The notes under the pieces are model-generated. The model was given only the letters and a program-made list of their open reading frames with translations, had not been told where the DNA came from and did no database searches. The position numbers and the translations under genes were made by a program. A stretch of 64,000 bases of DNA, taken from positions 2,418,001-2,482,000 of the forward strand of contig NZ_JACCFH010000001.1 in NCBI RefSeq assembly GCF_013410775.1, in the 5' to 3' direction. Shown here piece after piece: positions 1-15,404 of the stretch; position 1 is the first letter of the stretch, and each line of letters opens with the position of its first letter. The stretch is from Sphaerotilus montanus. Lineage in GTDB: Bacteria > Pseudomonadota > Gammaproteobacteria > Burkholderiales > Burkholderiaceae_C.

Positions 1-3000
1 AGAACGTTTCCAGGGCCTTGTTCAGTGCCTGGCTGTACTGGCGGTGCTCGGCGTTGTCCCGGCGGGTCAGCATGTGCATCTGCGGTGTTGAGCCGATGAT
101 CAGCGCGGGCAGCCATTGCTTGACATCAAAGGTGCCATGGATGAGCGCGTTGGCGTACTGCTCGGCATCGGCTGCCGCTGGCCAGCCGAGCAGCGCGGCG
201 AGCCGGGCCGGGGCTGCCTTCTGGCGGTCGGCCCATTCGGCAGGGCTGTCTGTGGCCAGAGGAATCTGCGCCGAGTCCACATCGTGGATCACCAGGGCAG
301 CATCGGCCTTCGGTGCAGCGGGGCCAAACCAGACATCGAGGTAGCCGCTGGCGAGCATCGACAGCCCCGGAACCTGGGTCACCAGCAGAAGGGCCTGGTG
401 TGGCGGACACAATTCGAACAGCAGCCGCATCTGCTGTTGCAGCGCCGGTGATGGAATGTCGACGTGACGCAGGACGATGATCATGGCTGGCGCCGAGCGT
501 TTGCGCAGCGACTCGAATCGGCGTGGTGCGTAGATCTGTCGCCGCAGCCAGTGGCGGCGGCATCGTTCCGAATGGACGAGGCGGTGCCAGCGCGAACTTG
601 GCTCGATGGCTGAAGCAAGGATCTTTTCGAGACGTGGTACTGTCTTCGACAGTATTTTGCCTAGCCATGTCAGCAGAGGCAGGAGTCCGATGCGCAGACT
701 CGCTGGCAGGGTGCGGATCAGCAGTAGCAGGAAGACCAGTAAGTACGCCGTTGTGCCGAGCGCCAATTTTGCGCGATGAGCTTTGAGCCAAGCGGTGTCC
801 TGCAGGTTGGTCAGAATTTTCTGGCCGAGTTGGCGTAGGTGTACGCCTGACAAATCCGGCGCGCTGACGAAGGCCGGATCAATCAAGTAAACCAAACCGG
901 CGACAACCAGCAGTGTCATCACTGCCATGACCAGGAGGGCAGCTAGAAAATATGCGGCCGGCATGAAGAGCAGGCTTTCCAGAACTGCGGCTCCGCGTTG
1001 CCACCACCGTGTGCGGTCGGCCAAGAGGTGTTGCTCGATGAAGTCGATCGCCGCAGCGTTGGAACTGGTCTGCTCCTGCGCACCGGCCAGATCGAAGATG
1101 CGCACACGCACATCGGCTGCCGAACTGCCTGCAGGCAGGGCTGATGCCATGTCGTCACGGCGCGCGGCGATGTCTTCCAGCCAGTGGTCCAGGGCTGGGT
1201 CGTTTGCACTGACGACGCCTGCGAGCCAGTGAGGGGCGATGGCGATATCCCCGTCTTTGGTTACCTTCCTGCTGCGCGCCTGTTGCAGTTTTTGACCAAA
1301 CAGTGGCATCAGGGCGGTTAGCGCCGCGAGGCCGGGGGCAGGGGGCCGTGGGCTGCGCCACCAGTGGCTGTCTTGAGCAGCGATGCCGCGGATCGCGACT
1401 GAGGCAATGGTGCGGGTGACTTGGTAGACGCGCAGCGATCGGGGAGGCGTCTGTGACGTGCTCGCACTGGATGCCGGTGGTTGGGCGATCAGTACAGGCT
1501 GTGTCGGACTGCCGGGTTTGTGATGCCAGAACTGGTCGAAGCAGCCTTGGCAGCCGCCGGAGAGAAGGAAATCTGCCAGTGCTGCCGTTTGGGCCACTGC
1601 TGCGGGTTGCCCGGTAGCGGCGAGGTTGGCGATGTGCAGGGCTTGCGGGCTGTGTGTGTCTGCCGAAGCGATTGGCTCAGGCGTGCCGGTCGCGCCATTG
1701 GCCCAGACAATGTTGCCTTCGGAGTGACCGATGTTGGCAATCAGCGCAATGCCGGATTGCTTGTTGTGATGGCATCGATTGCCAATGACGTCCACTTCGG
1801 ACGCACAGTCAGGCAAATTTTGGTCTCGTTCAATACTGATGCCGCTTAGTGTGCGATTGCCCCAGCAGTCGTTTTTTACTACGCGGCCTTGGCTAGAAAA
1901 AAAGATAATTCCTGCTTGCTTATTATCGTGGCATTTGTTGCCTATGACATCCACTTCGGATGGGTGTGTGGGCGACTTTGGGTCGCGTTGAATGAGAATG
2001 CCACTGTGAGTGCGACTTCCCCTGCAATTATTGTTTTCTATGCGGCCGCGACTGGAGAAGAATGCAATTCCGGACTGTTCATTTTTGTGGCAAATATTGT
2101 CAGTGACGGCTACTTCTGATGGTTGTTCTGGAGATCTTTTGTCTCGCTGAATCATAATGCCGCTGAAGATGTGACTGCCCGAGCACTCATTTTTTTCTAT
2201 GAGGCCGTGACTGGAGAAAAATGAAATCCCGGCCTCCTGGTTTTTTCGGCATGTGTTACCAATTACATCCACTTCGGACGCATATCCAGGTGAGTTGTTA
2301 TCGTGCTCAATAGAAATGCCGGTTGTTTTATTTTTCCAGCAGGCGTTATTTTTTGCGAGGCCCTCGCTGGAAAGAAATGTTATTCCGGCTTCCGTATTTT
2401 CATGGCATCGATTACCGATGACTTCCACTATGGAGGGTTGCTCGGGTGATTTTTTGTCGCGCTGAATGATAATGCCGCTGAGGGTTTTATTTCTCCAGCA
2501 GTCATTGTCTTCTACGCGGCCTTGGCTAGAGAAAAATACAATCCCACTGTCTTTGTTATTATAACATCGATTGCCGATAACCTGTGCTTCAGAAGGTTCT
2601 TTCGGTGAATAATTGTCGCGTTCAATGTTTATCCCGCTCAGTGTCTGATTTTCCCAGCAGGTGTTATTTTTCACGAGGCCCTTGCTGGAAAGAAAGACAA
2701 TTCCAGCCCCCTTGTTTCCATGGGATTTGTTGCCGATGACATCCACTTTAGATGGGTGCTCGGGAGACTTTTTGTCTCGCTGAATGATGATGCCACTGAG
2801 GGTGCGATTGCCCCAGCAGTCGTTGTTTTCTGCACGACCCTTGCTGGAACAGAAAATAATTCCAGCTTGCTCATTCTCTTTACATCGATTGCCGATGACA
2901 TCTACTTCGGATGCGCAGTCAGGTGACTTTGTGTCTCGTTCAACGTTGATGCCACTGAGGGTACGATTGCCCCAGCAGTCGTTGTTTTCTGCACGACCCT

Positions 3001-4084
3001 TGCTGGAAAGGAAAATAATCCCCGCTTGCTTATTCTCGTGGCACCGATTGCTGATGACATCAACTTCAGATGGGTGCTCTGGAGATTCTGGGTCTCGCTG
3101 AATGATGATGCCACTGAGGGTGCGATTGCCCCGGCAGTCGTTGTTTTCTGCACGACCCTGACTGGATAGAAATATAATTCCAGCTTGCTCATTCTCGTTA
3201 CATCGATTGCCGATGACATCTACTTCGGATGCGCAGTCAAGTGACGTTGGGTCTCGTTCAATGCTGATGCCGTTCCGTGTGATGCTGCCCCAGCAGTCGT
3301 TGTTTTCTACCCGGCCTCGGCTGGAAAAAAATACTATTCCAGACCCCTTGTTGTCATGGCACTGATTGCCGATTACTTTTGCTTCTGAGGGTTGCTCCAG
3401 TGATTTTGTGTCTCGCGAAATACTAATTCCGCTGGTTGTGTGGCTGCCAGATAATTTATTGTTTGTAATGATGCCGCATGTGGAGAAAAATGCTAGGCCA
3501 CTCTGAAGTGTATTATGGCACTGATTGTTATTTGCTATAATTGCAGGTTCTGACCCAGTGGATGGTCTACATTGACGGGCAAATACTCCTATATTTCCAT
3601 CTTCAATATTATTGGAATCAATTGAGCCATCGGATAGCTCGAATTTAATGCCGGCGCCCCAATTATCAGCTTCCGGTCGGCAAGCCCGTACATGATTGGC
3701 ATGGATCTCGATGTCTGTCGAATGCTCAACCAGAATGCCGTTGTCAGCAAGGATGTTTCCGTCTAGCTCGCATCCCTTGATCAGTACACGCGCAGCATGA
3801 CGCACCGCAATCAGCGTCGATGTAGGTACAGTCACCCGCAGTTTCAGTGCAAGAATCTCGACATCGGCTGTCCCCTCGGTCTGCAGCACAGGGCCGGCAC
3901 CGTGTCCGATCAGTTCTGTCTTGCCACTGCCGACCAGACACACCCCGGACGGAACGTGCAGCGTCGTGTCCCCCTCGTAGACACCGTTGCCCAGTTCGAT
4001 CCGGTCGCCCGGGGCTGACCGTCCGAGCAGACGTTCCAAGCCGCTCCATCCGGCCGAGGCCGGGCATACCTGAATTCTTGACAT
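1..4084 (-). CDS. Giant right-handed beta-helix repeat membrane protein, 3' end beyond window
   Basis: Read by hand: the frame starting with ATG at 4084-4082 stays open to the left edge, giving at least 1361 residues with the stop codon outside the window. Residues 1 to about 90 look like the capping start of a pectate-lyase-type helix (GNGVYEGDTTLHVPSGV). Residues from about 180 to 790 are tandem 53-residue units with the core VIGNRCxxNxxAGIxFxSS, then ENNDCWGNRTLSGI. A Pro/Ala/Ser-rich linker follows. Two hydrophobic segments lie near residues 1040-1069 and 1104-1145. A C-terminal domain from about 1190 begins with MIIVLRHVD, which looks like an NTPase core strand, but no Walker A motif is visible. 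There is no signal peptide, so both ends are probably cytosolic (inference). A GGAGGG ribosome site supports the start. It lies 87 bases downstream of icmF on the same strand. I do not recognise its function. Confidence 0.85.
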   Translation of the reverse strand, partial: MSRIQVCPASAGWSGLERLLGRSAPGDRIELGNGVYEGDTTLHVPSGVCLVGSGKTELIGHGAGPVLQTEGTADVEILALKLRVTVPTSTLIAVRHAARVLIKGCELDGNILADNGILVEHSTDIEIHANHVRACRPEADNWGAGIKFELSDGSIDSNNIEDGNIGVFARQCRPSTGSEPAIIANNNQCHNTLQSGLAFFSTCGIITNNKLSGSHTTSGISISRDTKSLEQPSEAKVIGNQCHDNKGSGIVFFSSRGRVENNDCWGSITRNGISIERDPTSLDCASEVDVIGNRCNENEQAGIIFLSSQGRAENNDCRGNRTLSGIIIQRDPESPEHPSEVDVISNRCHENKQAGIIFLSSKGRAENNDCWGNRTLSGINVERDTKSPDCASEVDVIGNRCKENEQAGIIFCSSKGRAENNDCWGNRTLSGIIIQRDKKSPEHPSKVDVIGNKSHGNKGAGIVFLSSKGLVKNNTCWENQTLSGINIERDNYSPKEPSEAQVIGNRCYNNKDSGIVFFSSQGRVEDNDCWRNKTLSGIIIQRDKKSPEQPSIVEVIGNRCHENTEAGITFLSSEGLAKNNACWKNKTTGISIEHDNNSPGYASEVDVIGNTCRKNQEAGISFFSSHGLIEKNECSGSHIFSGIMIQRDKRSPEQPSEVAVTDNICHKNEQSGIAFFSSRGRIENNNCRGSRTHSGILIQRDPKSPTHPSEVDVIGNKCHDNKQAGIIFFSSQGRVVKNDCWGNRTLSGISIERDQNLPDCASEVDVIGNRCHHNKQSGIALIANIGHSEGNIVWANGATGTPEPIASADTHSPQALHIANLAATGQPAAVAQTAALADFLLSGGCQGCFDQFWHHKPGSPTQPVLIAQPPASSASTSQTPPRSLRVYQVTRTIASVAIRGIAAQDSHWWRSPRPPAPGLAALTALMPLFGQKLQQARSRKVTKDGDIAIAPHWLAGVVSANDPALDHWLEDIAARRDDMASALPAGSSAADVRVRIFDLAGAQEQTSSNAAAIDFIEQHLLADRTRWWQRGAAVLESLLFMPAAYFLAALLVMAVMTLLVVAGLVYLIDPAFVSAPDLSGVHLRQLGQKILTNLQDTAWLKAHRAKLALGTTAYLLVFLLLLIRTLPASLRIGLLPLLTWLGKILSKTVPRLEKILASAIEPSSRWHRLVHSERCRRHWLRRQIYAPRRFESLRKRSAPAMIIVLRHVDIPSPALQQQMRLLFELCPPHQALLLVTQVPGLSMLASGYLDVWFGPAAPKADAALVIHDVDSAQIPLATDSPAEWADRQKAAPARLAALLGWPAAADAEQYANALIHGTFDVKQWLPALIIGSTPQMHMLTRRDNAEHRQYSQALNKALETF
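1720..3555 (-). repeat. Tandem 159-bp coding repeats (53 residues each)
   Basis: Eleven units can be aligned by the first base of their conserved Val codon: 3376, 3217, 3058, 2899, 2740, 2581, 2422, 2266, 2107, 1948 and 1789. Spacing is exactly 159 except for one 156-bp unit (2422 to 2266), which has lost a codon. A more diverged unit precedes the block, and the last unit decays into the linker. Units 1-8 alternate between an ERD type and a QRD type, so the true period is often 318 bp. Neighbouring units share identical stretches of about 45 bases (for example near 2804-2848 and 2963-3007), which suggests fairly recent duplication or gene conversion. Confidence 0.9.
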
Positions 4085-4093
4085 CTCGTTGTG

Positions 4094-4099
4094 CCCTCC
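4094..4099 (-). promoter_or_regulatory. Ribosome binding site of the beta-helix gene
   Basis: On the minus strand GGAGGG lies 9 bases before the ATG at 4084. This near-ideal Shine-Dalgarno sequence decides the start. Just upstream, 4101-4120 holds CTGCAG copies either side of an 8-base AT-rich spacer. No U-tract terminator is visible between icmF and this gene, so read-through from icmF is possible. Confidence 0.7.
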
Positions 4100-4171
4100 G
4101 CTGCAGCAATATATCTGCAGATCGAGGCGCGCACGAGTCCCGGGCGTACCGGGATTAGTTCAGGGGATCGC

Positions 4172-7100
4172 TCACATGCTCCGCCGGTATTGTCCCCCCA
4201 CCTCGAACAACGCCCCCGTGATCTGCCCCAGCGAGCAAACCCGCACCGCGTCCATCAACACCTCGAACACATTCGCATTGTCGATCACCGCCTGCTGAAG
4301 CCGCTTCAGCATCGCGGGCGCCTGGGCCGCATGGCGCGTGTGGAAATCGTTCAGCCGCGCGAGCTGCGACGCCTTCTCGTCATCGGTGGAGCGCGCCAGC
4401 TCGATCGTCTCCGGAATCTCGTCGCCCTTCGGGTTGCGGAAGGTGTTGACGCCGATGATCGGGTACTCGCCGGTGTGCTTGAGCATCTCGTAGTGCATCG
4501 ACTCTTCCTGGATCTTCGAGCGCTGGTAGCCCGTCTCCATCGCGCCGAGCACGCCGCCGCGGTCGGCGATCTTCTCGAACTCGGCCAGCACCGCCTCTTC
4601 GACCAGCTCGGTCAGCTCGTCGATGATGAACGCGCCCTGGTTCGGGTTCTCGTTCTTCGCCAGGCCCCACTCGCGGTTGATGATCATCTGGATCGCCATC
4701 GCGCGGCGCACCGACTCCTCGGTCGGCGTCGTGATCGCCTCGTCGAAGGCGTTGGTGTGCAGCGAGTTGCAGTTGTCGTACACCGCGATCAGCGCCTGCA
4801 GCGTGGTGCGGATGTCGTTGAACTGGATCTCCTGCGCGTGCAGCGAGCGGCCCGAGGTCTGGATGTGGTACTTCAGCTTCTGGCTGCGGTCGTTGGCGCC
4901 GTACTTGTCGCGCATCGCCACCGCCCAGATGCGGCGGGCGACGCGGCCGAGCACGGTGTACTCCGGGTCCATGCCGTTCGAGAAGAAGAACGACAGGTTG
5001 GGCGCGAAGTCGTCGATGTGCATCCCGCGCGCCAGATACGCCTCGACGAACGTGAAGCCGTTCGACAGCGTGAACGCGAGCTGGCTGATCGGGTTCGCAC
5101 CCGCTTCGGCGATGTGGTACCCGCTGATCGACACCGAGTAGAAGTTGCGCACGTCGTGGTGGACGAAGTACGAGGCGATGTCGCCCATCACCTTCAGGCT
5201 GAACTCGGTCGAGAAGATGCAGGTGTTCTGGCCCTGGTCTTCCTTGAGGATGTCGGCCTGCACCGTGCCGCGCACATTGGCCAGCACCCACGCCTTGATC
5301 TTCGAGGCTTCGTCGTCGGTCGGGTCGCGGTGGTTGTCGGCCTTGAACTTGTCGAGCTGCTGGTCGATGGCCGCGTTCATGAACATCGCCAGGATGCTCG
5401 GCGCCGGGCCGTTGATCGTCATGCTCACCGAGGTCGTCGGGCTGCACAGGTCGAAGCCTGAATAGAGCACCTTCAGGTCGTCCAGCGTCGCGATGCTCAC
5501 CCCGGAGTTGCCGACCTTGCCGTAGATGTCCGGACGCGGATCGGGGTCGGCGCCGTACAGCGTCACCGAGTCGAAGGCGGTGGACAGGCGCTTGGCGGGG
5601 ATGCCCTCGCTCACCAGCTTGAAGCGGCGGTTGGTGCGGAAGGCGTCGCCTTCACCCGCGAACATGCGCGTCGGGTCTTCGCCTTCGCGCTTGAACGCGA
5701 ACACGCCGGCCGTGAACGGGAAGCTGCCGGGCACGTTGTCCAGCATCAGCCACTTCAGCAACTCGCCGTGGCACTCGTAGCCGGGCAGGGCGACCTTGCG
5801 GATCTTGTTGCCGCTCAGCGTGGTGTGGATCAGGTTGGTGCGGAGTTCCTTGTCGCGGATCTTCACGACGTATTCGTCACCGGCGTAGGCGCGCTGCATC
5901 TCGGGCCACATGGCCAGCAGCTTCTTCGCGCTGGGGTCGAGCCGGGCTTCGCGTTCCTCGGCCAGTTCCGTCAGGGCCTCGACACCGCGGTTCTTGGCCG
6001 GATTGGACTGCTTGAACATCAAGGCGCTGGCGCGCAGCTGCTGGATCTCGCGGGCAAGCGTGGCCTGCTGGCGGACCCGGGCCTTGTAGCCGCGCACGGT
6101 GTCGGCGATCTCGGCGAGGTAGCGGGTGCGGGCGGCCGGGACGATGGGCGTCTGGTGCGTGCTGTGGCGGGTATTGACCAGCGGCAGGCGGCCTTCGGCA
6201 AGCTGCAGGCCTAGCGCACCGAGGCGGACCTTGAGCGCCTGGTAGAGCGCCGTCACGCCGTCGTCGTTGAAGCGGCTGGCCATCGTGCCGAACACCGGCA
6301 TCTGGTCGGGCATCACGGTGAAGGCTTCGCGGTTGCGCTGCACCTGCTTGGCGACATCGCGCAGCGCATCCGCCGAGCCCTTGCGGTCGAACTTGTTGAT
6401 GGCGACGAACTCGGCGAAGTCGAGCATGTCGATCTTCTCCAGTTGGCTGGCAGCGCCGAACTCGGGCGTCATCACGTACATCGGCACGTCGACGAAGGGC
6501 ACGATCGCCGCGTCACCCTGGCCGATGCCGGAGGTCTCCACGATGACCAGGTCGAAGCCGGCGACCTTCGCGGCGGCCAGCACCTCGGGCAGCGCGGCCG
6601 AGACTTCCGAGCCGGTGTCGCGCGTGGCGAGGCTGCGCACGTAGACGCGCTGGCCGTTCGACCACGGGCCGGTGGCGTTCATGCGGATGCGGTCGCCGAG
6701 CAGGGCGCCGCCGCTCTTGCGCCGCGACGGGTCGATGCTGATGACGGCGATGCGCAGCGCGTCGTCCTGGTCGAGGCGGAAGCGGCGGATCAGCTCGTCG
6801 GTGAGGCTGGACTTGCCGGCGCCGCCGGTGCCGGTGATGCCGAGCACGGGGGTCTTGCTTGCCTTCGCCGCTTCATGCACGGCGGCGACCACGCCCGCGT
6901 CCGCCTTGCCGTTTTCCAGCGCGGTGATGAGCTGCGCCAGCGCGCGCCAGGCGGCTTCGGTGTGGCCCTGCAGCGCGGCGAGGTCGGTCGGCGCGTAACT
7001 CGACAGATCCTGGTCGCAGCGCATCACCATCTCGCCGATCATCCCGGCAAGCCCCATGCGCTGGCCGTCCTCGGGGCTGAAGATGCGCACGCCGTGGCTG

Positions 7101-7462
7101 CTCAGGTCGCGGATCTCGGCCGGCACGATCACGCCGCCGCCGCCGCCGAAGACCTGGATGTGCGCGCCGCCGCGCGCCTTGAGCAGCTCGACCATGTACT
7201 TGAAGTACTCGACATGGCCGCCCTGGTAGGAGCTGACCGCGATCCCCTGCACGTCTTCCTGCAATGCGGCGGTGACCACTTCATCGACCGAGCGGTTGTG
7301 GCCCAGGTGGATCACCTCGGTGCCCATGCCCTGCAGGATGCGCCGCATGATGTTGATGGCGGCGTCGTGGCCGTCGAACAGGCTCGCGGCGGTGACGAAA
7401 CGCACCTTGTTCGTCGGGCGGTAGCTGGCAAGGGCCTTGTGGTCGGCGGACAGGTCGGTCAT
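4172..7462 (-). CDS. icmF: Fused isobutyryl-CoA mutase (IcmF)
   Basis: Adenosylcobalamin-dependent interconversion of isobutyryl-CoA and n-butyryl-CoA, in a form that carries its own G-protein chaperone. All three parts are visible in 1096 residues. The N-terminal B12-binding domain has the lower-axial-ligand motif DGHDAA (His32). The MeaB/MeaI-like GTPase has Walker A GTGGAGKS at 211-218. The C-terminal acyl-CoA mutase barrel runs from about residue 550 to the end. The length matches known IcmF proteins. It is transcribed alone or with the downstream beta-helix gene, and divergently from nrtA. A perfect palindrome 48 bases upstream is a likely operator. The IcmF assignment is firm, but related fusions act on other branched acyl-CoAs, so the exact substrate is inferred. 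Confidence 0.95.
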
Positions 7463-7854: not shown

Positions 7855-9108
7855 ATGACGACGCCCCTGTTTCCTGTCAACCCGTCTCGACGCGACTTCC
7901 TCCAGCGTGCCGCCGCCGTGACGGCCGCAGGCAGCGCGGTCGCCTTGCCCGGCGGTGCCTGGGCCGCCGGCTCGGACGCCCCCGAGAAGAAGGAAGTCCG
8001 CATCGGCTTCATCCCGCTGACCGACTGCGCCTCGGTCGTGATGGCCTCGGTGATGAAGTTCGACGAGAAGTACGGCATCAAGATCATTCCGTCCAAGGAA
8101 TCGTCCTGGGCCGCCGTGCGCGACAAGCTGGTCAATGGCGAGCTGGATGCGGCGCACGTGCTCTACGGTCTGGTCTACGGTGTCCACCTCGGCGTGAGCG
8201 GCCCGAAGAAGGACATGGCCGTGCTGATGACCCTCAACAACAACGGCCAGGCGATCACGCTGTCCAAGAAGCTGGCCGACAAGGGCGCGGTCGATGGCGC
8301 CGGTCTGGCCAAGGTCATGAAGGCCGAGCCGCGTGAATACACCTTCGCGCAGACCTTCCCGACCGGCACCCACGCGATGTGGCTGTACTACTGGCTGGCC
8401 TCCAACGGCATCAACCCGATGTCGGACGCCAAGGTCATCACCGTGCCGCCGCCGCAGATGGTGGCCAACATGCGCGTGGGCAACATGGACGGGTTCTGCG
8501 TCGGCGAGCCCTGGAACCACCGCGCCATCATCGACGGCATCGGCGTGACCGCGACCACGACCCAGGACATCTGGAAGGACCACCCCGAGAAGGTCCTGGG
8601 CTGCACCGCCGAGTTTGTCCAGAAGAACCCGAACACGGCGCGCGCCATGATCATGGCGGTGCTGGACGCCAGCCGCTGGATCGACGCCGGCCTGCAGAAC
8701 AAGATGAAGATGGCGGAGACGATCGCCGAGAAGTCCTACGTCAACACGTCGGTCGACGCGATCAACCAGCGCATCCTGGGCCGCTACCAGAACGGCATGG
8801 GCAAGACCTGGGACGATCCGAACCACATGAAGTTCTTCAACGACGGTGCGGTGAACTACCCCTACCTGTCGGACGGCATGTGGTTCCTGACCCAGCACAA
8901 GCGCTGGGGCCTGCTCAAGAGCGACCCGGACTACCTCGGCGTGGCCAAGGCGATCAACCAGACGGCGCTCTACAAGGAAGCGGCCGCGCAACTCAAGGTC
9001 AGCGTGCCCAAGAGCGACATGCGCACCAGCAAGCTGGGTGATGGCGTGGTGTGGGACGGCTCGAATCCGGCCAAGTACGCCGCGTCTTTCAAGATCAAGG
9101 CGGCCTGA
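7855..9108 (+). CDS. nrtA: Nitrate-type ABC transporter substrate-binding protein (NrtA/CmpA family)
   Basis: Periplasmic anion-binding component of an ABC importer, 417 residues. The N-terminus has a twin-arginine signal (SRRDFLQRAA, then a hydrophobic run to GGAWA). The mature part opens with VRIGFIPLTDCASVVMA, typical of NrtA-like nitrate, nitrite or cyanate binders. I chose ATG 7855, which has GGAG 8 bases upstream. An in-frame TTG at 7816 falls inside the leader T-tract and is unlikely. It is the first gene of a three-gene operon with permease and ATPase downstream. No nitrate or nitrite reductase is in the window, so nitrate is the family's usual ligand, not a proven one. Confidence 0.88.
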   Translation: MTTPLFPVNPSRRDFLQRAAAVTAAGSAVALPGGAWAAGSDAPEKKEVRIGFIPLTDCASVVMASVMKFDEKYGIKIIPSKESSWAAVRDKLVNGELDAAHVLYGLVYGVHLGVSGPKKDMAVLMTLNNNGQAITLSKKLADKGAVDGAGLAKVMKAEPREYTFAQTFPTGTHAMWLYYWLASNGINPMSDAKVITVPPPQMVANMRVGNMDGFCVGEPWNHRAIIDGIGVTATTTQDIWKDHPEKVLGCTAEFVQKNPNTARAMIMAVLDASRWIDAGLQNKMKMAETIAEKSYVNTSVDAINQRILGRYQNGMGKTWDDPNHMKFFNDGAVNYPYLSDGMWFLTQHKRWGLLKSDPDYLGVAKAINQTALYKEAAAQLKVSVPKSDMRTSKLGDGVVWDGSNPAKYAASFKIKAA

Positions 9109-9159
9109 GCGGGCGCCCTGGAGGCCACCGCCATGTCCCACCCACCTCAGGAGATTTCG

Positions 9160-10071
9160 ATGAACGCCATGACCTTGCCCCTGTCGGCCAGCGTCGCCCC
9201 CGATGACACGGTCCGTGCCGTGCCCGAGGCCCCGGCTCCCGTGGTCGACGTTGCCGCACAGGCCCGGCTCAAGGCCCAGGTGGCGGCCATGGCGCGGGCC
9301 CAGCGTCTGAAGACGATGGCGCGCTTCGCCGCACCGCTGCTGGGCTTCCTCGTGCTGCTGCTGGTCTGGCAGGCGGTGGCCCACAGCGGCGACAAGCAGC
9401 TGCCCGGCCCGGTCCCGGTCTGGCACGCGGCGGTCAAGCTGTTCTCCGATCCGTTCTACGTCAACGGCCCGAACGACCAGGGCATCGGCTGGAACGTGCT
9501 GTCCTCGTTGCAGCGGGTGGGCGTGGGCTTCGGTCTGGCGGCGCTGGTGGGCATCCCGCTGGGCTTCATGATCGGCCGCTTCGACTTCCTGAACCAGATG
9601 CTCGACCCGATCATCAGCCTGCTGCGCCCGGTGTCGCCGCTGGCCTGGCTGCCGATCGGCCTGATGGTGTTCAAGGCGGCCAACCCGGCGGCGATCTGGA
9701 CCATCTTCATCTGCTCGATCTGGCCGATGGTCATCAACACGGCGGTGGGGGTGCGGCAGGTGCCGCAGGACTACCTCAACGTCGCCCGTGTGCTGAACCT
9801 GTCGGAACTGACGATCCTGCGCAAGATCCTGTTCCCGGCCGTGCTGCCCTACATGCTGACGGGCGTGCGGCTGGCGGTGGGCACGGCGTGGCTGGTGATC
9901 GTGGCGGCCGAGATGCTGACGGGCGGGCAGGGCATCGGTTTCTGGCTGTGGGACGAGTGGAACAACCTCAACGTCGCACACATCCTGATCGCCATCTTCG
10001 TCATCGGCGCCGTGGGCGTGGCGCTCGAAGCGCTGCTGGTGGCCATCGCCCGCCGCTTCGACTATTCCTGA
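9160..10071 (+). CDS. nrtB: Nitrate-type ABC transporter permease
   Basis: Inner-membrane permease of the importer, 303 residues with about six membrane segments and a binding-protein-dependent transport signature region. The segment VFKAANPAAIWTIFICSIWPMVINTAVGVRQVPQDYLNVAR is conserved in NrtB. The start at ATG 9160 is preferred because AGGAG lies six bases before it. An upstream in-frame ATG at 9133 would add nine residues and has no comparable site. It follows nrtA by 51 bases and precedes the ATPase gene by 29. Confidence 0.9.
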   Translation: MNAMTLPLSASVAPDDTVRAVPEAPAPVVDVAAQARLKAQVAAMARAQRLKTMARFAAPLLGFLVLLLVWQAVAHSGDKQLPGPVPVWHAAVKLFSDPFYVNGPNDQGIGWNVLSSLQRVGVGFGLAALVGIPLGFMIGRFDFLNQMLDPIISLLRPVSPLAWLPIGLMVFKAANPAAIWTIFICSIWPMVINTAVGVRQVPQDYLNVARVLNLSELTILRKILFPAVLPYMLTGVRLAVGTAWLVIVAAEMLTGGQGIGFWLWDEWNNLNVAHILIAIFVIGAVGVALEALLVAIARRFDYS

Positions 10072-10100
10072 CTCCCTGAGCCTTCGAGAGGACCCGCACC

Positions 10101-10940
10101 ATGAGCACCACCTCCCTGGACGAGCGCAGCCAGCGCTTTCTGCGCATCGAGAACGTCGGGATGTCCTTCCCGACCAAGAAGGGCACCTTCGTCGCGCTGC
10201 GCGACGTGAACCTGGACGTGGCCCGCGGCGAGTTCATCACCATGATCGGTCACTCGGGCTGCGGCAAGTCGACGCTGCTGAACCTCGTGGCCGGCCTGAC
10301 GACGCCGACCTCGGGCGTGCTGCTGCTCGACGGCCGCGAGCTGAAGGGCCCCGGCCCGGAGCGCGCGGTGGTGTTCCAGAACCACTCGCTGCTGCCCTGG
10401 ATGACCTGCCAGGAGAACGTCGGTCTCGCGGTGGACCGTGTGTTCGGTGCGACCGAGTCGAAGGCGCAACTGCGTGACCGCGCGCTCGCCGCCCTCGACC
10501 TCGTCGGCCTGACCCATGCCAAGGACAAGCGGCCTGGCGAGATCTCCGGCGGCATGAAGCAGCGCGTGGGCATCGCCCGGGCGCTGGCGATGGAGCCGAA
10601 GATGCTGCTGATGGACGAGCCCTTCGGAGCGCTGGACGCGCTGACCCGCGCCAAGCTGCAGGACGAACTGATGAAGATCGTCGCCACCACCGGATCGACC
10701 GTGATGATGGTGACACACGATGTGGACGAGGCGGTGCTGCTGTCCGACCGCATCGTGATGCTGACCAACGGCCCGGCGGCGACGATCGGCGAGGTGCACC
10801 AGGTGCCGCTGCCGCCGGTGCGCGAGCAGTTCCGCCCGCGGCTGGAGATGGCCCACAACGCCGATTACCTGCGCGCCCGCGAGGCGGTGCTCGAATTCCT
10901 GTACCACAAGCAGGCCCATGTGGAGAAGGACGCGGCCTGA
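10101..10940 (+). CDS. nrtD: Nitrate-type ABC transporter ATP-binding protein
   Basis: ATPase that drives the importer, 279 residues. Walker A is GHSGCGKST near residue 50, the ABC signature is SGGMKQR, Walker B is MLLMDEPFGALD, and the switch His is in MVTHDVDEA. The opening (NVGMSFPTKKGTFVALRDVNLDVARGEF) is characteristic of the nitrate-specific ATPase subfamily. There is no C-terminal binding-protein-like extension, so it is the short NrtD/NasD form and not NrtC. It is the last clear member of the operon. Confidence 0.9.
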   Translation: MSTTSLDERSQRFLRIENVGMSFPTKKGTFVALRDVNLDVARGEFITMIGHSGCGKSTLLNLVAGLTTPTSGVLLLDGRELKGPGPERAVVFQNHSLLPWMTCQENVGLAVDRVFGATESKAQLRDRALAALDLVGLTHAKDKRPGEISGGMKQRVGIARALAMEPKMLLMDEPFGALDALTRAKLQDELMKIVATTGSTVMMVTHDVDEAVLLSDRIVMLTNGPAATIGEVHQVPLPPVREQFRPRLEMAHNADYLRAREAVLEFLYHKQAHVEKDAA

Positions 10941-10972
10941 GGTCCCGCCCAGTTGAATCCGGTTGTACTGAA

Positions 10973-11647
10973 TTGAAACAGCTGTGTTGCAACTGGGCAG
11001 CGCAAGGTGAAGATTTACAGTCACAATTCCCACGTGGTGAACCAGCGATTCCGTTGATTTCTTCACCACGATTGCGAGGGACGACCTTGGGGATTCCGTG
11101 CAAGACGGCTGCTGGACACGCCGAACTGGCATCGCAGGACTGTCGGTTGTCCAGGCGGCACCGCGTGCTGCTGCTGCTGGTGGACGGCGAGCGTTCGCTG
11201 GACGAGGTGGTGCAGCTCGGACGCCAGGTGGGCGTGCCCCGCAGCTACATCGACGAGCTCTTTGCGCTCGGTCTGATCGTCATCGGTCCGCCAGTGGCGC
11301 AGGCGATCAGCGAGTTCGCCGCGTTCGGACCCGACCTGGCTCCGACCCGGCCAGGTGGTGTGGGCGACACCATCGGCCTGGGTGGCCCGATGGGCAACAC
11401 GGAACTGGCGCAGCTCGATGCACAGGACTCCAGCCTGGCGCAGGCGCGGGTGGCGGTGCTGCAGGTGCTGCGCGCCAACGCCCCCGTTTCCGGGATGGTG
11501 ACGATGATCAGGGTACGGCGTGTGCGGTCTCGCGCAGAATTGCGGGCCTTGCTGCCCGAGGTCCAGGCTCGACTGAGCCGCTCGCGGCCGCTGGTCGAGG
11601 CGCGGCAACTGATGCAGCGCGTCGAATCCCTGCTGGCGGTCGGCTGA
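10973..11647 (+). CDS. Unrecognised protein with a winged-helix-like segment
   Basis: I do not recognise this gene. The frame opens at TTG 10973 (224 residues); TTG 11087 is another possible start and would give 186 residues. A segment near the middle (RHRVLLLLVDGERSLDEVVQLGRQVGVPRSYIDELFALGLIVIG) looks like a small helix-turn-helix or winged-helix fold. The C-terminal third (LAQARVAVLQVLRANAPVSGMVTMIRVRRVRSRAELRALL) is helical and charged. It sits 33 bases after nrtD and 48 bases before coaX. The many rare-looking residues before about position 40 suggest that the true start is internal. Confidence 0.5.
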   Translation: MKQLCCNWAAQGEDLQSQFPRGEPAIPLISSPRLRGTTLGIPCKTAAGHAELASQDCRLSRRHRVLLLLVDGERSLDEVVQLGRQVGVPRSYIDELFALGLIVIGPPVAQAISEFAAFGPDLAPTRPGGVGDTIGLGGPMGNTELAQLDAQDSSLAQARVAVLQVLRANAPVSGMVTMIRVRRVRSRAELRALLPEVQARLSRSRPLVEARQLMQRVESLLAVG

Positions 11648-11695
11648 CGGTCGCCGGTCGTCTCCCATCCGTAGCGTCGTCGTGGTCGTGCCTGC

Positions 11696-12469
11696 ATGAG
11701 TTTCCTTGTCATCGACATCGGCAATACCCGTCTCAAGTGGGGGCTCTACGCCGCCCCCCGGCCCGGGGCCGAACTGCTGGCGCATGGTGCGTCATTCCTT
11801 GAAACCATCGACCGCCTGGCCGACGACGAGTGGGCGCGCCTGCCCCCGCCCACGCACATGCTGGGCTGCGCGGTGGCGGGCCTGGCGGTGCGCCGGCGGG
11901 CCGAAGAGCAGCTGGACCTCTGGGATCTGGAGCCGCGCTGGGTGGTGTCCCAGCCGGCGGCCTGCGGTGTCACCAACGGCTATGACCATCCCGCCCGCCT
12001 CGGCTCGGACCGCTGGGTGGCGATGATCGGCGCGCGGGCGCGGGTGCTGGCCTCCGGGCCGCCGCGGCCGGCGCTGGTGGTGATGGTGGGCACGGCGGTG
12101 ACGGTGGATGCGCTCGACGCCGAGGGCCGCTTCCTGGGCGGGCTGATCCTGCCGGGCTTCGGGCTGATGCTCAAGGCGATGGAGTCGGGCACTGCCGGTC
12201 TGAAGGTGCCGACCGGCGAAGTCCGCGAGTTCCCGACCAACACCAGCGACGCGCTGATGAGCGGTGGCACCTACGGCATCGCCGGTGCGATCGAGCGCAT
12301 GCACCGCCATCTCGTGCAGCGTTGCGGCGAGTTGCCGGTGTTGCTGATGAGCGGTGGCGCCGCCGTCAAGCTGGCGCCGGAGACCGATCTGCCGTTCGAG
12401 CTGACCGACACGCTGGTCTTCGAGGGCCTGCTGCAGCTCGCGGCGGCCGGGTCGCTTCAGGGCGGCTGA
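11696..12469 (+). CDS. coaX: Type III pantothenate kinase
   Basis: First step of coenzyme A synthesis: ATP-dependent phosphorylation of pantothenate in the cytosol. At 257 residues it is full length. The ASKHA-fold phosphate motifs are visible: [12 protein letters not shown] with Asp7, and [10 protein letters not shown] followed by GGLILPG. The C-terminal glycine-rich MSGGAAVKL is also typical. In many relatives birA lies directly upstream, but here the unrecognised gene takes that place. The 3' end overlaps the convergent channel gene by 13 bases. Confidence 0.95.
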
Positions 12470-13239
12470 TCCAGACGGCGCCGCAGCGACTGCAGTTCGT
12501 CGTGCGTGGCGCGCAGCTCGGCGCGCAGCTGGCCGATCTCGGCATGCAGGTCGCGCAGGATGTCGTGCTCCATGCGCCGCTCCGAGGACTCGACCCACAT
12601 GGCCGCGATCGAGGCCGTGACCAGCGACAGGATGCCGAAGCCCAGCAGCACCACGAACACGGCGAACACCTTGGACGCTGGTGTGCTCGGCACCACGTCG
12701 CCATAGCCGACGGTGGCGGCGGTGGTGAAGGCCAGCCACAGGCCGTCCGCCAGCGTGGGGGTGCGTGGCTCGATCCACCAGAAGCCCGCGCCGCACAGCA
12801 GCAGCACCAGCACCGCCGCGCCCAGCAGCGACGGCAGGCTGTCGCGTGCCAGCAGGTGCTGCAGCAGCCACATCATGTGCAGCAGGGTCAGCAGCGCGGT
12901 CAGCAGGCGCAGCGTCAGTGCGAACGACGAGGTCGAACTGGGGGGCAGCACGGCCGCCAGCAGCAACCCGGCGATCAGCGTCCACACCAGCCAGCGGCGC
13001 ATCCGGGTGGCCATGAGCACCCGCCGCAGGGCGATCCGCAGCACCATGGCCAGCGCCGCGAGGACATAGGCCGCCGCGGCCAGCAGCGAGCGTTCGCCAG
13101 TGAGCATCTCCAGATAGAACGCCGGGATCGTGGCGATCAGCGTGCCCAGGATGAACCAGCGGTCCGGGTCCCGCAGCACGCGCAGTGGCAGGCTGCCCGA
13201 GTGGGCCCGCAGGGCAGAACGGAGGCGTTGGGCAGGCAT
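12457..13239 (-). CDS. Voltage-gated-type potassium channel
   Basis: Inner-membrane ion channel of 260 residues. The selectivity filter TVGYGD is at 176-181, between the last two membrane helices. About four more hydrophobic segments precede it, so the layout is six-segment. The fourth segment carries only a loose cluster of basic residues ([15 protein letters not shown]), so true voltage sensing is uncertain. The C-terminus (residues 215-260) is a charged helix likely to form a coiled coil. ATG 13239 is chosen because upstream sequence in this frame looks non-coding. Confidence 0.88.
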
Positions 13240-13289
13240 CCGGTCAGCGTAGCAGAGGCCCGGTCGGCCAGCACGGTGCCGGTCCGTGT

Positions 13290-15404
13290 TCAGGTTCCAG
13301 GCGAGGGTACCAGGGCCGGTTGTGCGTGCAGCCAGCGCTGCATCTGCGGCACGGTCAGCGGCGCGCTGATGATCATCCCCTGCAGGTGATCGCAGCCTTG
13401 CCCGACCAGGAAGGCCCGCTGTGCCTCGGTCTCCACGCCTTCGGCGACCACGCTCAGGCCGAGGCCGCGGGCCAGCTGGACGATGGCGCTGGCGATGGCT
13501 GCCGATTCGCGCTGGTGCGGCAGCTCCTGCACGAAGGAGCGGTCGATCTTCATCGTGTCGATCGGCAGCTCCTTCAGGTGGCTGAGCGAGGAGTAGCCGG
13601 TGCCGAAATCGTCCACCGAGAGCTTCACGCCCAGCGCCCGCAGCTGCTGCAGCCGCGCGCAGACCTGCGGCACGTCGTCCATCAGCATGCGCTCGGTGAG
13701 TTCCAGCTCCAGCCAGCCGGCGGGCAATCCGGTCTCCGCCAGCAGGGACTGGATCGAGGCGACGAAGTCGGGCGCCTGGAACTGCAGCGTCGAGAGGTTG
13801 ACGGCCACGGTGAGCGGCCAGCCGGCGTCGTGCCACAGGCGTGCCTGGCGGGCGGCTTCGCGCAGCACCCAGGCGCCGATGGGGACAATCAGCCGGTGCT
13901 GTTCGGCCAGGGCGATGAACTCGTTCGGAGCCAGCAGTCCGCGCTGCGGATGCTGCCAGCGGATGAGGGCCTCGACGCCGACCGGGTGCCCGTCGCACGC
14001 ACGCACCTGCGGCTGGAACAGCAGCGCGAACTCGTCGTGGATGATGGCGTGGCCCAGCTCGCCTTCGAGCATCAGCTTGTCGTAGGCGGTGGTGGCCACG
14101 GCCGGCTCGAAGAAGGCGAAGGTGGCGCGGCCGCGGCCCTTGGCGACGTGCATCGCGGCATCTGCATGCTTGATGAGCACGTCGGGCGTGTCACTGTCCT
14201 GCGGATAAAGCGCGATGCCGATCGAGGGGGTGACCGAGATCGACTGGCCTTCGACCGTCACCGGTGCGCCCACCGCTTCGAGCAGCTTGCCGGCCACGCG
14301 GACCACCGCATCGCGGTCGCGCACGCCGGGCAGCAGCACCATGAACTCGTCGCCGCCGAAGCGGGCGATGCGGTCGGTGCTGCGCACGCACTGGCACAGG
14401 CGCTGGGAGATGGTCTTGAGCAGCGCGTCGCCACGGGTGTGTCCCACGGAGTCGTTGACGCGCTTGAAATGGTCCAGGTCGATGAAGAGCAGGGCGAGCT
14501 GGGTGTCGGAGGCGCGCGCGGCGACCATCAGGTGGTCGAGCTGCGCCAGGAAGGCGGCGCGGTTGGGCAGGCCGGTGAGCGCGTCGTGGTGGACGAGGTA
14601 GTGCAGCCGGGCCTGGGTGGCGTGGCGGTCGCGGATGTCGCGCACCACGGCCATGCGCATCGGTTCGCCGTGCTGCATGGTGCCGCGGTCGATCACTTCG
14701 ACGGGGATGCGCGTGCCGTCCTGGTGGACCACGCTGGTCTCGAAGGTGACGTCCTGCTGGCCGTCGAGTTGCCGGACGGTGCGGGTGTGGTGCTCCGGCG
14801 CGATCAGCATCAGGGCCGGACGGCCCAGCAGATCATGCAGCGACAGGCCGACCAGCTCGCACAGGGCGGGGTTGGCGTCGTCGATGTGGCCGTCGCGGTG
14901 GAAGAAGATGCCCTCGACGCCGGCCTGCAGGAACTTGGACAGGCGTTCCTCGGATTCGAGCAGCGCGCGCTCGGCGGCATGGTGGCGGCTCTGGTCGACG
15001 ATGAGCACGTAGACGCCGGAGCGGCGGCCCTGCGGGTCGAGGTGCGGCGTGAGCGTGACCTCGACCCACAGGCGCTGGCCATCGCGCAGGGCCAGCGGCT
15101 GCTCCAGCGTGAGGGCCTGACCGTCCTGCAGGGTACCGGTCAGTACGTGGGAGAGCTGGGCGACCAGTTCCGGCTGCAGCACATCGGCCAGCGCCCGTCC
15201 CAGTGGGGAGCGCGCCGGGTCGCACAGGCCCTGCATGAAGGTCCGGTTGGCATAGGTGCAGAGCTGCCGCGGACCATCGAAGTAGGCCATCATGACCGGC
15301 GCACTGTCGGCCAGGCGGCACAGCTTGTCCCGGTCCTGCCCGGCGTCGAGCGAGCCTCCCCCCGGGGAGGTGTGGTCAGCAGGGGGACTGGTGGGCAGGG
15401 GCAT
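13290..15404 (-). CDS. PAS-GGDEF-EAL cyclic di-GMP protein
   Basis: Bifunctional candidate for making and degrading cyclic di-GMP, 704 residues, soluble. Two PAS-like sensor regions occupy roughly residues 25-260. The GGDEF domain is intact (RFGGDEF), with an inhibitory RxxD site (RSTD) five residues before it. The EAL domain keeps EALIRW, ELTE and DDFGTGYSSL, so both activities look possible. The start is ATG 15404; a longer frame to 15452 is Cys/Arg-rich and unlikely. It lies downstream of hslU on the same strand, 78 bases apart, and is probably separate from it. Confidence 0.92.
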   Translation of the reverse strand: MPLPTSPPADHTSPGGGSLDAGQDRDKLCRLADSAPVMMAYFDGPRQLCTYANRTFMQGLCDPARSPLGRALADVLQPELVAQLSHVLTGTLQDGQALTLEQPLALRDGQRLWVEVTLTPHLDPQGRRSGVYVLIVDQSRHHAAERALLESEERLSKFLQAGVEGIFFHRDGHIDDANPALCELVGLSLHDLLGRPALMLIAPEHHTRTVRQLDGQQDVTFETSVVHQDGTRIPVEVIDRGTMQHGEPMRMAVVRDIRDRHATQARLHYLVHHDALTGLPNRAAFLAQLDHLMVAARASDTQLALLFIDLDHFKRVNDSVGHTRGDALLKTISQRLCQCVRSTDRIARFGGDEFMVLLPGVRDRDAVVRVAGKLLEAVGAPVTVEGQSISVTPSIGIALYPQDSDTPDVLIKHADAAMHVAKGRGRATFAFFEPAVATTAYDKLMLEGELGHAIIHDEFALLFQPQVRACDGHPVGVEALIRWQHPQRGLLAPNEFIALAEQHRLIVPIGAWVLREAARQARLWHDAGWPLTVAVNLSTLQFQAPDFVASIQSLLAETGLPAGWLELELTERMLMDDVPQVCARLQQLRALGVKLSVDDFGTGYSSLSHLKELPIDTMKIDRSFVQELPHQRESAAIASAIVQLARGLGLSVVAEGVETEAQRAFLVGQGCDHLQGMIISAPLTVPQMQRWLHAQPALVPSPGT

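Follow-up and report, generated by a model that had tools for sequence, protein, structure and literature searches.

Fusions of a repeat-fold sensor with an NTPase switch recur in bacterial immunity. Here we describe a gene of Sphaerotilus montanus (genome G000) in whose product, P0001, a tandem-repeat beta-helix is followed by a membrane hairpin and a long C-terminal region. The window, i.e. the whole stretch of 64,000 nucleotides that was analysed, spans positions 2418001-2482000 of contig C1 of this genome; the locus L002 consists of the window plus 10 kb on its left, so that L002 positions exceed window positions by 10000. The gene is real, rare and mobile, and its architecture is found in none of the libraries searched (Pfam, NCBIfam and PADLOC). 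Our preferred reading, to which we give a probability of about 0.42, takes it for an accessory gene that spreads horizontally and is used in conflicts with invaders, phages being the likeliest; in its product a cytosolic helix sensor would act on a membrane-embedded, degenerate KAP/STAND-like switch.

The closest described proteins fall into three groups. In the passage of PMC11846954 that concerns it, Tmn is a phage-defence protein of the KAP family with two transmembrane domains and an unexplored mechanism, and an excerpt of PMC10907252 counts KAP NTPases among the diversified putative antigen sensors. P0001 resembles the KAP NTPases that have membrane segments inside the NTPase domain, Tmn included, in that two such segments stand between putative Walker A- and Walker B-like stretches, in the spacing on the A side, and in being encoded by an accessory gene; it differs from them by the lack of GK[ST] at the Walker A place, of DD.DR in Walker B and of a significant profile match, and by the 830-residue beta-helix in front. 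For inactive STAND (iSTAND) modules a sensor role is predicted in a number of defence systems, including the MoxR-vWA and BREX systems, according to the sections of PMC7159879, PMC8195603 and PMC12839542 dealing with them, and P0001 would share with these a fast-evolving, degenerate P-loop module as predicted sensor. Unlike them, it has no library match and no MoxR-vWA or BREX genes were noticed beside either known copy; MoxR/vWA partners were looked for by eye in the lists of open reading frames (16 kb of L002 and 20 kb of L062), with no profile search aimed at them. The third group, the helices of NosD and AlgG type (PF05048, PF13229), is alike in helix fold and coil pattern, whereas P0001 has no visible export signal, is built of 53-residue two-coil units and is fused to membrane and C-terminal modules.

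Anatomy of P0001 and its homologue

An earlier, sequence-only reading of the window had proposed a single long frame with a beta-helix of about 600 residues, a low-complexity linker and an architecture unlike any named family, the rest of its locus lying to the left of base 1. The single frame, which at window 2-4084 (minus strand) is open for 1361 codons up to the window edge, stays open beyond it: in the whole-genome sequence the complete gene occupies L002:8634-14084 (minus strand) and encodes 1816 residues with no internal stop. What lies to the left of base 1 is thus 455 further codons of the gene itself. The helix was confirmed by Pfam (whole protein: Beta_helix, PF13229, 2.4e-43; NosD, PF05048, 4.1e-23) and its length corrected to nearer 810 residues, the linker was recognised in the translation as a Pro/Ser/Thr-rich stretch near residues 858-885, and the architecture is new insofar as no library model searched has it; a full-length match to a characterised family was found in none of the three libraries. 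The open frame is not a chance one, because its 53-residue units are under purifying selection and a full-length homologue exists in another genus. This homologue, P0002 of genome G990 from the same family, is the one true relative detected; it shows 35% identity over the full-length alignment, has the same repeats, hairpin and C-terminus, and can be aligned with P0001 to near the last residues (IEGLAxGxHG).

The part of P0001 inside the window scores 151.2 bits against PF13229 (curated cut-off 25.9), which assigns it to the right-handed beta-helices, and P0002 matches the same family (5.2e-44). Narrower assignments failed: the NosD subfamily model TIGR04247 gave 40.6 bits against a cut-off of 300 and the AlgG equivalog NF038177 gave 32.2 bits against 700, and an identity as NosD or as an epimerase was rejected on these scores. 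In the AlphaFold2 model computed for residues 1-560 from the single sequence, strands run all through the repeats (mean predicted local distance difference test score, pLDDT, 59.5; predicted template modelling score, pTM, 0.66), with means of 57-92 for blocks of 10 residues from residue 201 and values below 50 for residues 1-180; the remaining four models average 29 to 52. The top Foldseek match of this model is AlgG (4nk6, E 3.4e-3, template modelling score 0.27), followed by surface and tailspike helices, with none at E <= 0.001, and the modelled match indicates a helix and nothing beyond.

Each 53-residue unit consists of two helical coils, and the periodicity of the repeat array at the DNA level is 159 and 318. 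Identity among units is 62% within P0001, 64% within P0002 and 48% between the two proteins (nine units each, a degenerate ninth being included for P0002); since the values within proteins exceed that between them, each array was expanded or homogenised on its own. For the nine units of P0001 compared, the mean proportion of synonymous differences (pS) is 0.63 and that of nonsynonymous differences (pN) 0.21. Diversifying selection on the repeats was considered and discarded, as pN exceeded pS in 0 of 36 pairs in P0001 and likewise in P0002 (nine units each). Cys 31 of the unit is present in 9/9 real copies aligned and Cys 9 in 8/9, the first row of the alignment being a hand-made composite that is not counted among the nine.

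Searches with the C-terminus as query illustrate how rare the gene is. The genome samples overlap, their counts are not additive, and G000 itself is counted in all but the 18-genome set mentioned below. Only the own copy was found in the 60 nearest genomes, none in the 12 congeners of G000, and again only the own copy among 399 genomes of the order. The 379 genomes of the family yielded the own copy, G990 and two weak matches (G026 and G993), and the 398 genomes of the phylum the own copy and seven short weak matches (E 1.2e-4 to 5.9e-3), which we treated as chance; the one inspected (L009) lies in unrelated genes. Within the genus of G990 the P0002 type occurs in one of 18 genomes, G990 itself. 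No relatives were found by exact short-peptide pattern scans of genome contigs and viral contigs, nor by tblastn on plasmids or, with the C-terminus only, on phages. With the helix as query, the sole matches were a NosD of G015 in a set of 40 genomes and, in a set of 398, a protein of G746 that resembles a protease and carries a helix. The latter (L024) is a protein of 773 residues with, by eye, a signal-like start and a trypsin-like region, and with a C-terminal beta-helix of alternating coils.

Two insertion sites

In G000 the helix gene and a DUF4160/DUF2442 pair make up an insert of about 6.1 kb next to a conserved mutase gene, which we take from its sequence to be icmF-like. Beyond the helix gene stands a phytase-like gene (PF13449, 3.3e-51), and in the congeners G010 and G006 the phytase-like gene follows icmF directly, with DNA identities of 92.5% and 94.5%. 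The G+C content is 50.2% in the helix part of the gene and 62.9% in its C-terminal part, compared with 69.1% in window 4201-64000. The DUF4160 and DUF2442 open reading frames overlap by 17 nt, lie on the strand opposite to the helix gene (L002:8110-8581), and are included as the toxin-antitoxin system dhiTA of Dickeya in a list given in PMC8198452. In G004, a close relative, 1523 bases of icmF show 96.3% identity, and the defence system Septu starts 21 nt past the icmF stop. Altogether 11 downstream stretches were compared, two of them empty (G010 and G006), one with Septu (G004), one with the insert itself and seven with other sequence; L075 (G005) was left out because its match stands at a contig start, second matches, including L076-L083, were not used, and the longer stretches L085-L087 and L025 likewise entered no comparison reported here.

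The homologue occupies a different place. In G990 about 6.5 kb with the P0002 gene and a RES-type pair are found between PPK2 and urtA (both named by eye); the RES-domain gene matches PF08808 (9.2e-16), and the small gene beside it, which has no Pfam match, is presumably its antitoxin. At this place G909 and G1117 have 183 and 375 nt, these being two of the 14 other loci compared; the remaining 12 have no urtA within the 1.5 kb examined. Two unrelated sites thus carry this type of gene, in both cases next to a pair of toxin-antitoxin type, and in both cases there are relatives that lack it. A conserved set of partner genes, the subject of the neighbour survey suggested earlier, was not seen: the two copies have no neighbour gene in common (lists of open reading frames compared by eye), the adjoining small-gene pairs differ, and the gene behaves as solitary cargo. 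The coordinates of these features are given in the table. The rest of the window (4172-64000) appears by eye to hold ordinary chromosomal genes with a high G+C content at third codon positions, for the mutase, a nitrate-type transporter, HslUV, cytochrome oxidase and others.

Features of the P0001 gene and of its insertion site (window positions unless a locus is named)
Feature	Position	Strand	Basis
In-window part of the gene, residues 1-1361	1..4084	-	open reading frame list and genome extension
Final 455 codons and stop, extending to 1367 bases left of window base 1	L002:8634-10001	-	genome extension
Right-handed beta-helix, residues 1 to ~830 including N-terminal cap	1595..4084	-	Pfam, AlphaFold2 model
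Tandem array of ten 53-residue units (one has 52), residues 234-762, then a degenerate unit	1799..3385	-	repeat analysis
SGGCQGC, residues 842-848, after the helix; S, one G and both C common to the homologue	1538..1561	-	two-sequence alignment
VSA[ND]xPALDxWL, residues 956-970, proposed Walker A place without GxxxxGK[ST]	1175..1219	-	alignment; putative assignment
VRVRIFDLAG, residues 992-1001, aligns best with the KAP strand after Walker A (score not significant)	1082..1111	-	hhalign
Hydrophobic segment 1, residues 1032-1076	857..991	-	hydropathy
Hydrophobic segment 2, residues 1104-1135	680..775	-	hydropathy
PAMIIVLRHVDIPSPALQ, residues 1199-1216, Walker B-like but with the acidic pair substituted (RHVD; homologue RGVD)	437..490	-	putative assignment
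In-window part of the ~6.1-kb insert (L002 ~8058-14171)	1..4171		missing in G010 and G006
icmF-like mutase gene, conserved neighbour fixing the insertion site	4172..7462	-	open reading frame list
DUF4160/DUF2442 pair	L002:8110-8349 and 8333-8581	+	PF13711 4.3e-17, PF10387 6.6e-25
Septu PtuB then PtuA (G004)	L084:1545-3073	opposite to icmF	PtuB 5.1e-43, PtuA 1.9e-87

Membrane hairpin and C-terminal region

Hydropathy analysis bears out the two membrane segments that the sequence-only reading had seen, as well as the lack of a signal-peptide-like start, the first 60 residues of P0001 having no signal-like hydrophobic stretch (best 19-residue mean 0.78). Cytosolic beta-helices exist, the bactofilins being an example, and retention of the helix in the cytosol, also proposed by that reading, appears plausible from this start and from the cysteine count. 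There are 31 cysteines in residues 1-830 of P0001 and 36 in residues 1-770 of the homologue; because so many would be odd in the oxidising periplasm, a reducing compartment is plausible for the helix. The positive charges of P0001 (3 in 26 residues before the segments, 4 in 28 between them, and 6 in 40 followed by 12 in 37 after them) weakly favour an inside location for the C-terminal side, the contrast being slight in the homologue (4 in 26 ahead of the segments, 2 in 26 at each end of the loop, 3 in 26 behind them). Taken together, the start, the cysteines and the charges make it plausible that helix and C-terminus are both cytosolic. The C-terminal domain had been called new, and residues 801-1816 indeed match no Pfam, NCBIfam or PADLOC model at E <= 5; on the other hand, they may represent a degenerate KAP/STAND-like module, for which the profile test reported below gave no support.

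This possibility comes from the order of the elements. The hairpin is flanked in both homologues by VSA[ND]xPALDxWL and R[HG]VDxPSPAxQ, and the latter appears to correspond in place and pattern to a Walker B strand whose acidic pair is replaced. A Walker A motif (GxxxxGK[ST]) with an acidic Walker B was not found, the sole GK[ST] of P0001 being at residue 54, in the helix cap, and the homologue having none. The distance from the pseudo-Walker A to the first hydrophobic segment is 74 and 78 residues in the two homologues, against 70-88 in KAP domains, and that from the hairpin to the putative Walker B-like stretch is 71 in P0001 and 80 in the homologue, against 31-73. The reference is formed by seven KAP domains in which a hydrophobic segment separates the motifs, out of 20 with both motifs drawn from 28 of 30 loci (L054 and L055 were left out). 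These loci came from 200 genomes of the order that were searched for KAP, with a match in 44. When aligned to the KAP profile with hhalign, residues 1180-1330 fall best on the Walker B region and residues 935-1030 on the strand after Walker A, the same places being reached by 13 and 11 of 200 shuffled versions, respectively; residues 1290-1500 score nearly alike (12.5) at a place that makes no sense. Because profile scores are at the level of shuffled sequences, the KAP likeness is a lead and not membership. Membership as such was tested and rejected (no Pfam match, no motifs, chance-level profile), and KAP is retained here only in the sense of a protein that may work alike.

Proteins with KAP-type NTPase domains were also encountered. 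A 1572-codon frame of genome G221 (L056:4471-9186) is like P0001 in that a long array of near-identical repeats precedes a domain with membrane segments, but its repeats are of the YCF48/BNR propeller type (9 Pfam stretches) and its KAP NTPase is intact (AQWGRGKS and FIDDLDR; PF07693, 2.7e-25). Its NTPase part is matched by the PADLOC models PDC-S20, QatA and PifA, which shows that this library detects KAP-type proteins with intact motifs. In genome G102 (L057) two KAP-type NTPase frames of 462 and 1166 codons are adjacent and possibly form a pair.

Proposed function and rival explanations

According to our preferred reading P0001 would be clamped to the inner membrane by its hairpin, with helix and C-terminus inside the cell. 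The stacked repeat helix would bind a ligand or a component of the invader, and the signal would pass through the neck, with the CxxC common to both homologues, into the membrane-embedded degenerate switch, a KAP/STAND-like module with the hairpin between its former Walker A and B elements and unable to bind nucleoside triphosphates (NTPs) normally. Ligand binding would instead be relayed by conformation or oligomerisation, through assembly or a shift of the hairpin, and the outcome may be membrane damage or growth arrest. The adjoining toxin-antitoxin pair would probably stabilise the island and not be part of the mechanism. The anti-phage function is predicted.

Several results weigh against this reading. 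KAP NTPase (PF07693) has no Pfam match to P0001 at E <= 5; the hairpin-to-Walker B distance of the homologue lies outside the KAP range; and in hhalign residues 1180-1330 score 12.9, where 200 shuffles average 12.3, and residues 1140-1361 score 12.8, where 200 shuffles average 13.1 and the reversed sequence gives 12.9. A higher score, 18.7, goes to residues 1500-1816 at a position that is not plausible. For residues 846-1361 the quality of the AlphaFold2 model is too low for use (mean pLDDT 42.5), and no effector domain was recognised in P0001. No PADLOC 2.0.0 family matches P0001 (E <= 5) or P0002 (E <= 0.1), and the Septu genes do match. At the site level, the G+C content of the gene in G990 (64.1%) is close to that of its flanks (64.4%), G004 alone shows a defence system at the icmF site, on a contig that ends inside PtuA, and seven of the 11 downstream stretches (L067 and L069-L074, of which the starts of the longest open reading frames were read) hold other sequence, which has no match to the G000 downstream DNA save one of 26 nt in L074; the term hotspot therefore rests on G000 and G004 only. 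The toxicity of the DUF4160/DUF2442 pair is also unsure, because plasmids with either open reading frame deleted were stably kept in E. coli, as stated in an extract of PMC12724237.

The leading alternative, itself unlikely, retains a defence or conflict gene and takes the C-terminus for an unrelated, new membrane effector fold instead of a degenerate KAP/STAND module. All the evidence of mobility and the chance-level KAP profile match speak for it, while the order and spacing of the strand, the hairpin and the Walker B-like stretch resemble those of KAP domains and speak against it. Next in probability, and also unlikely, is that P0001 is a scaffold or polymer former organising the envelope from the cytosolic side of the membrane, as bactofilins are cytosolic, membrane-linked formers of scaffolds or polymers, with an insert that carries a niche trait. 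The regularity of the solenoid, in which Cys and Asn positions are conserved, the purifying selection on the units and the membrane hairpin speak for it, but sporadic presence at shifting sites with pairs of toxin-antitoxin type suits cargo better than a gene for cell structure, and about 1000 further residues would be left unexplained.

That the helix is periplasmic or surface-exposed, like those of NosD, AlgG, tailspikes and autotransporters, and belongs to a carbohydrate-active or adhesive envelope protein seems improbable. NosD and AlgG-type helices are the closest library families, and AlgG leads the fold matches, followed by surface and tailspike helices; yet there is no signal-like stretch, the helix contains 31 cysteines, no fold match reaches E <= 0.001, and residues 1-830 lack a DPH triplet, which is the epimerase motif. 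Least probable is a stand-alone toxin or inter-bacterial effector with the helix as delivery stalk. Long helices do serve as stalks in known contact-dependent systems, but Pfam recognises no export domain here, the homologues remain alignable to near the C-terminal end with no swapped tips, and the small-gene pairs differ between the copies. A polymorphic toxin was dropped for want of an export part and of a swapped tip.

Returning to the accessory conflict gene with a helix sensor and a degenerate switch, P0001 would probably be a new variant of the theme of repeat sensor and NTPase-like switch in bacterial immunity. An open-library literature search found no report of a beta-helix with a STAND NTPase or with phage defence, which does not imply absence from print. 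We suggest only tentatively, and with more doubt than belief, that the gene defines a new single-protein class of immunity, in which a cytosolic tandem-repeat beta-helix sensor is fixed to a hairpin in an NTP-independent pseudo-KAP switch, is exchanged with Septu-like systems at a defence hotspot, and has an array that expands separately in each lineage. If so, a natural version lacking the nucleotide-binding residues would show that signalling by the hairpin and the fold does not require NTP, and the beta-helix would join the known sensor folds.

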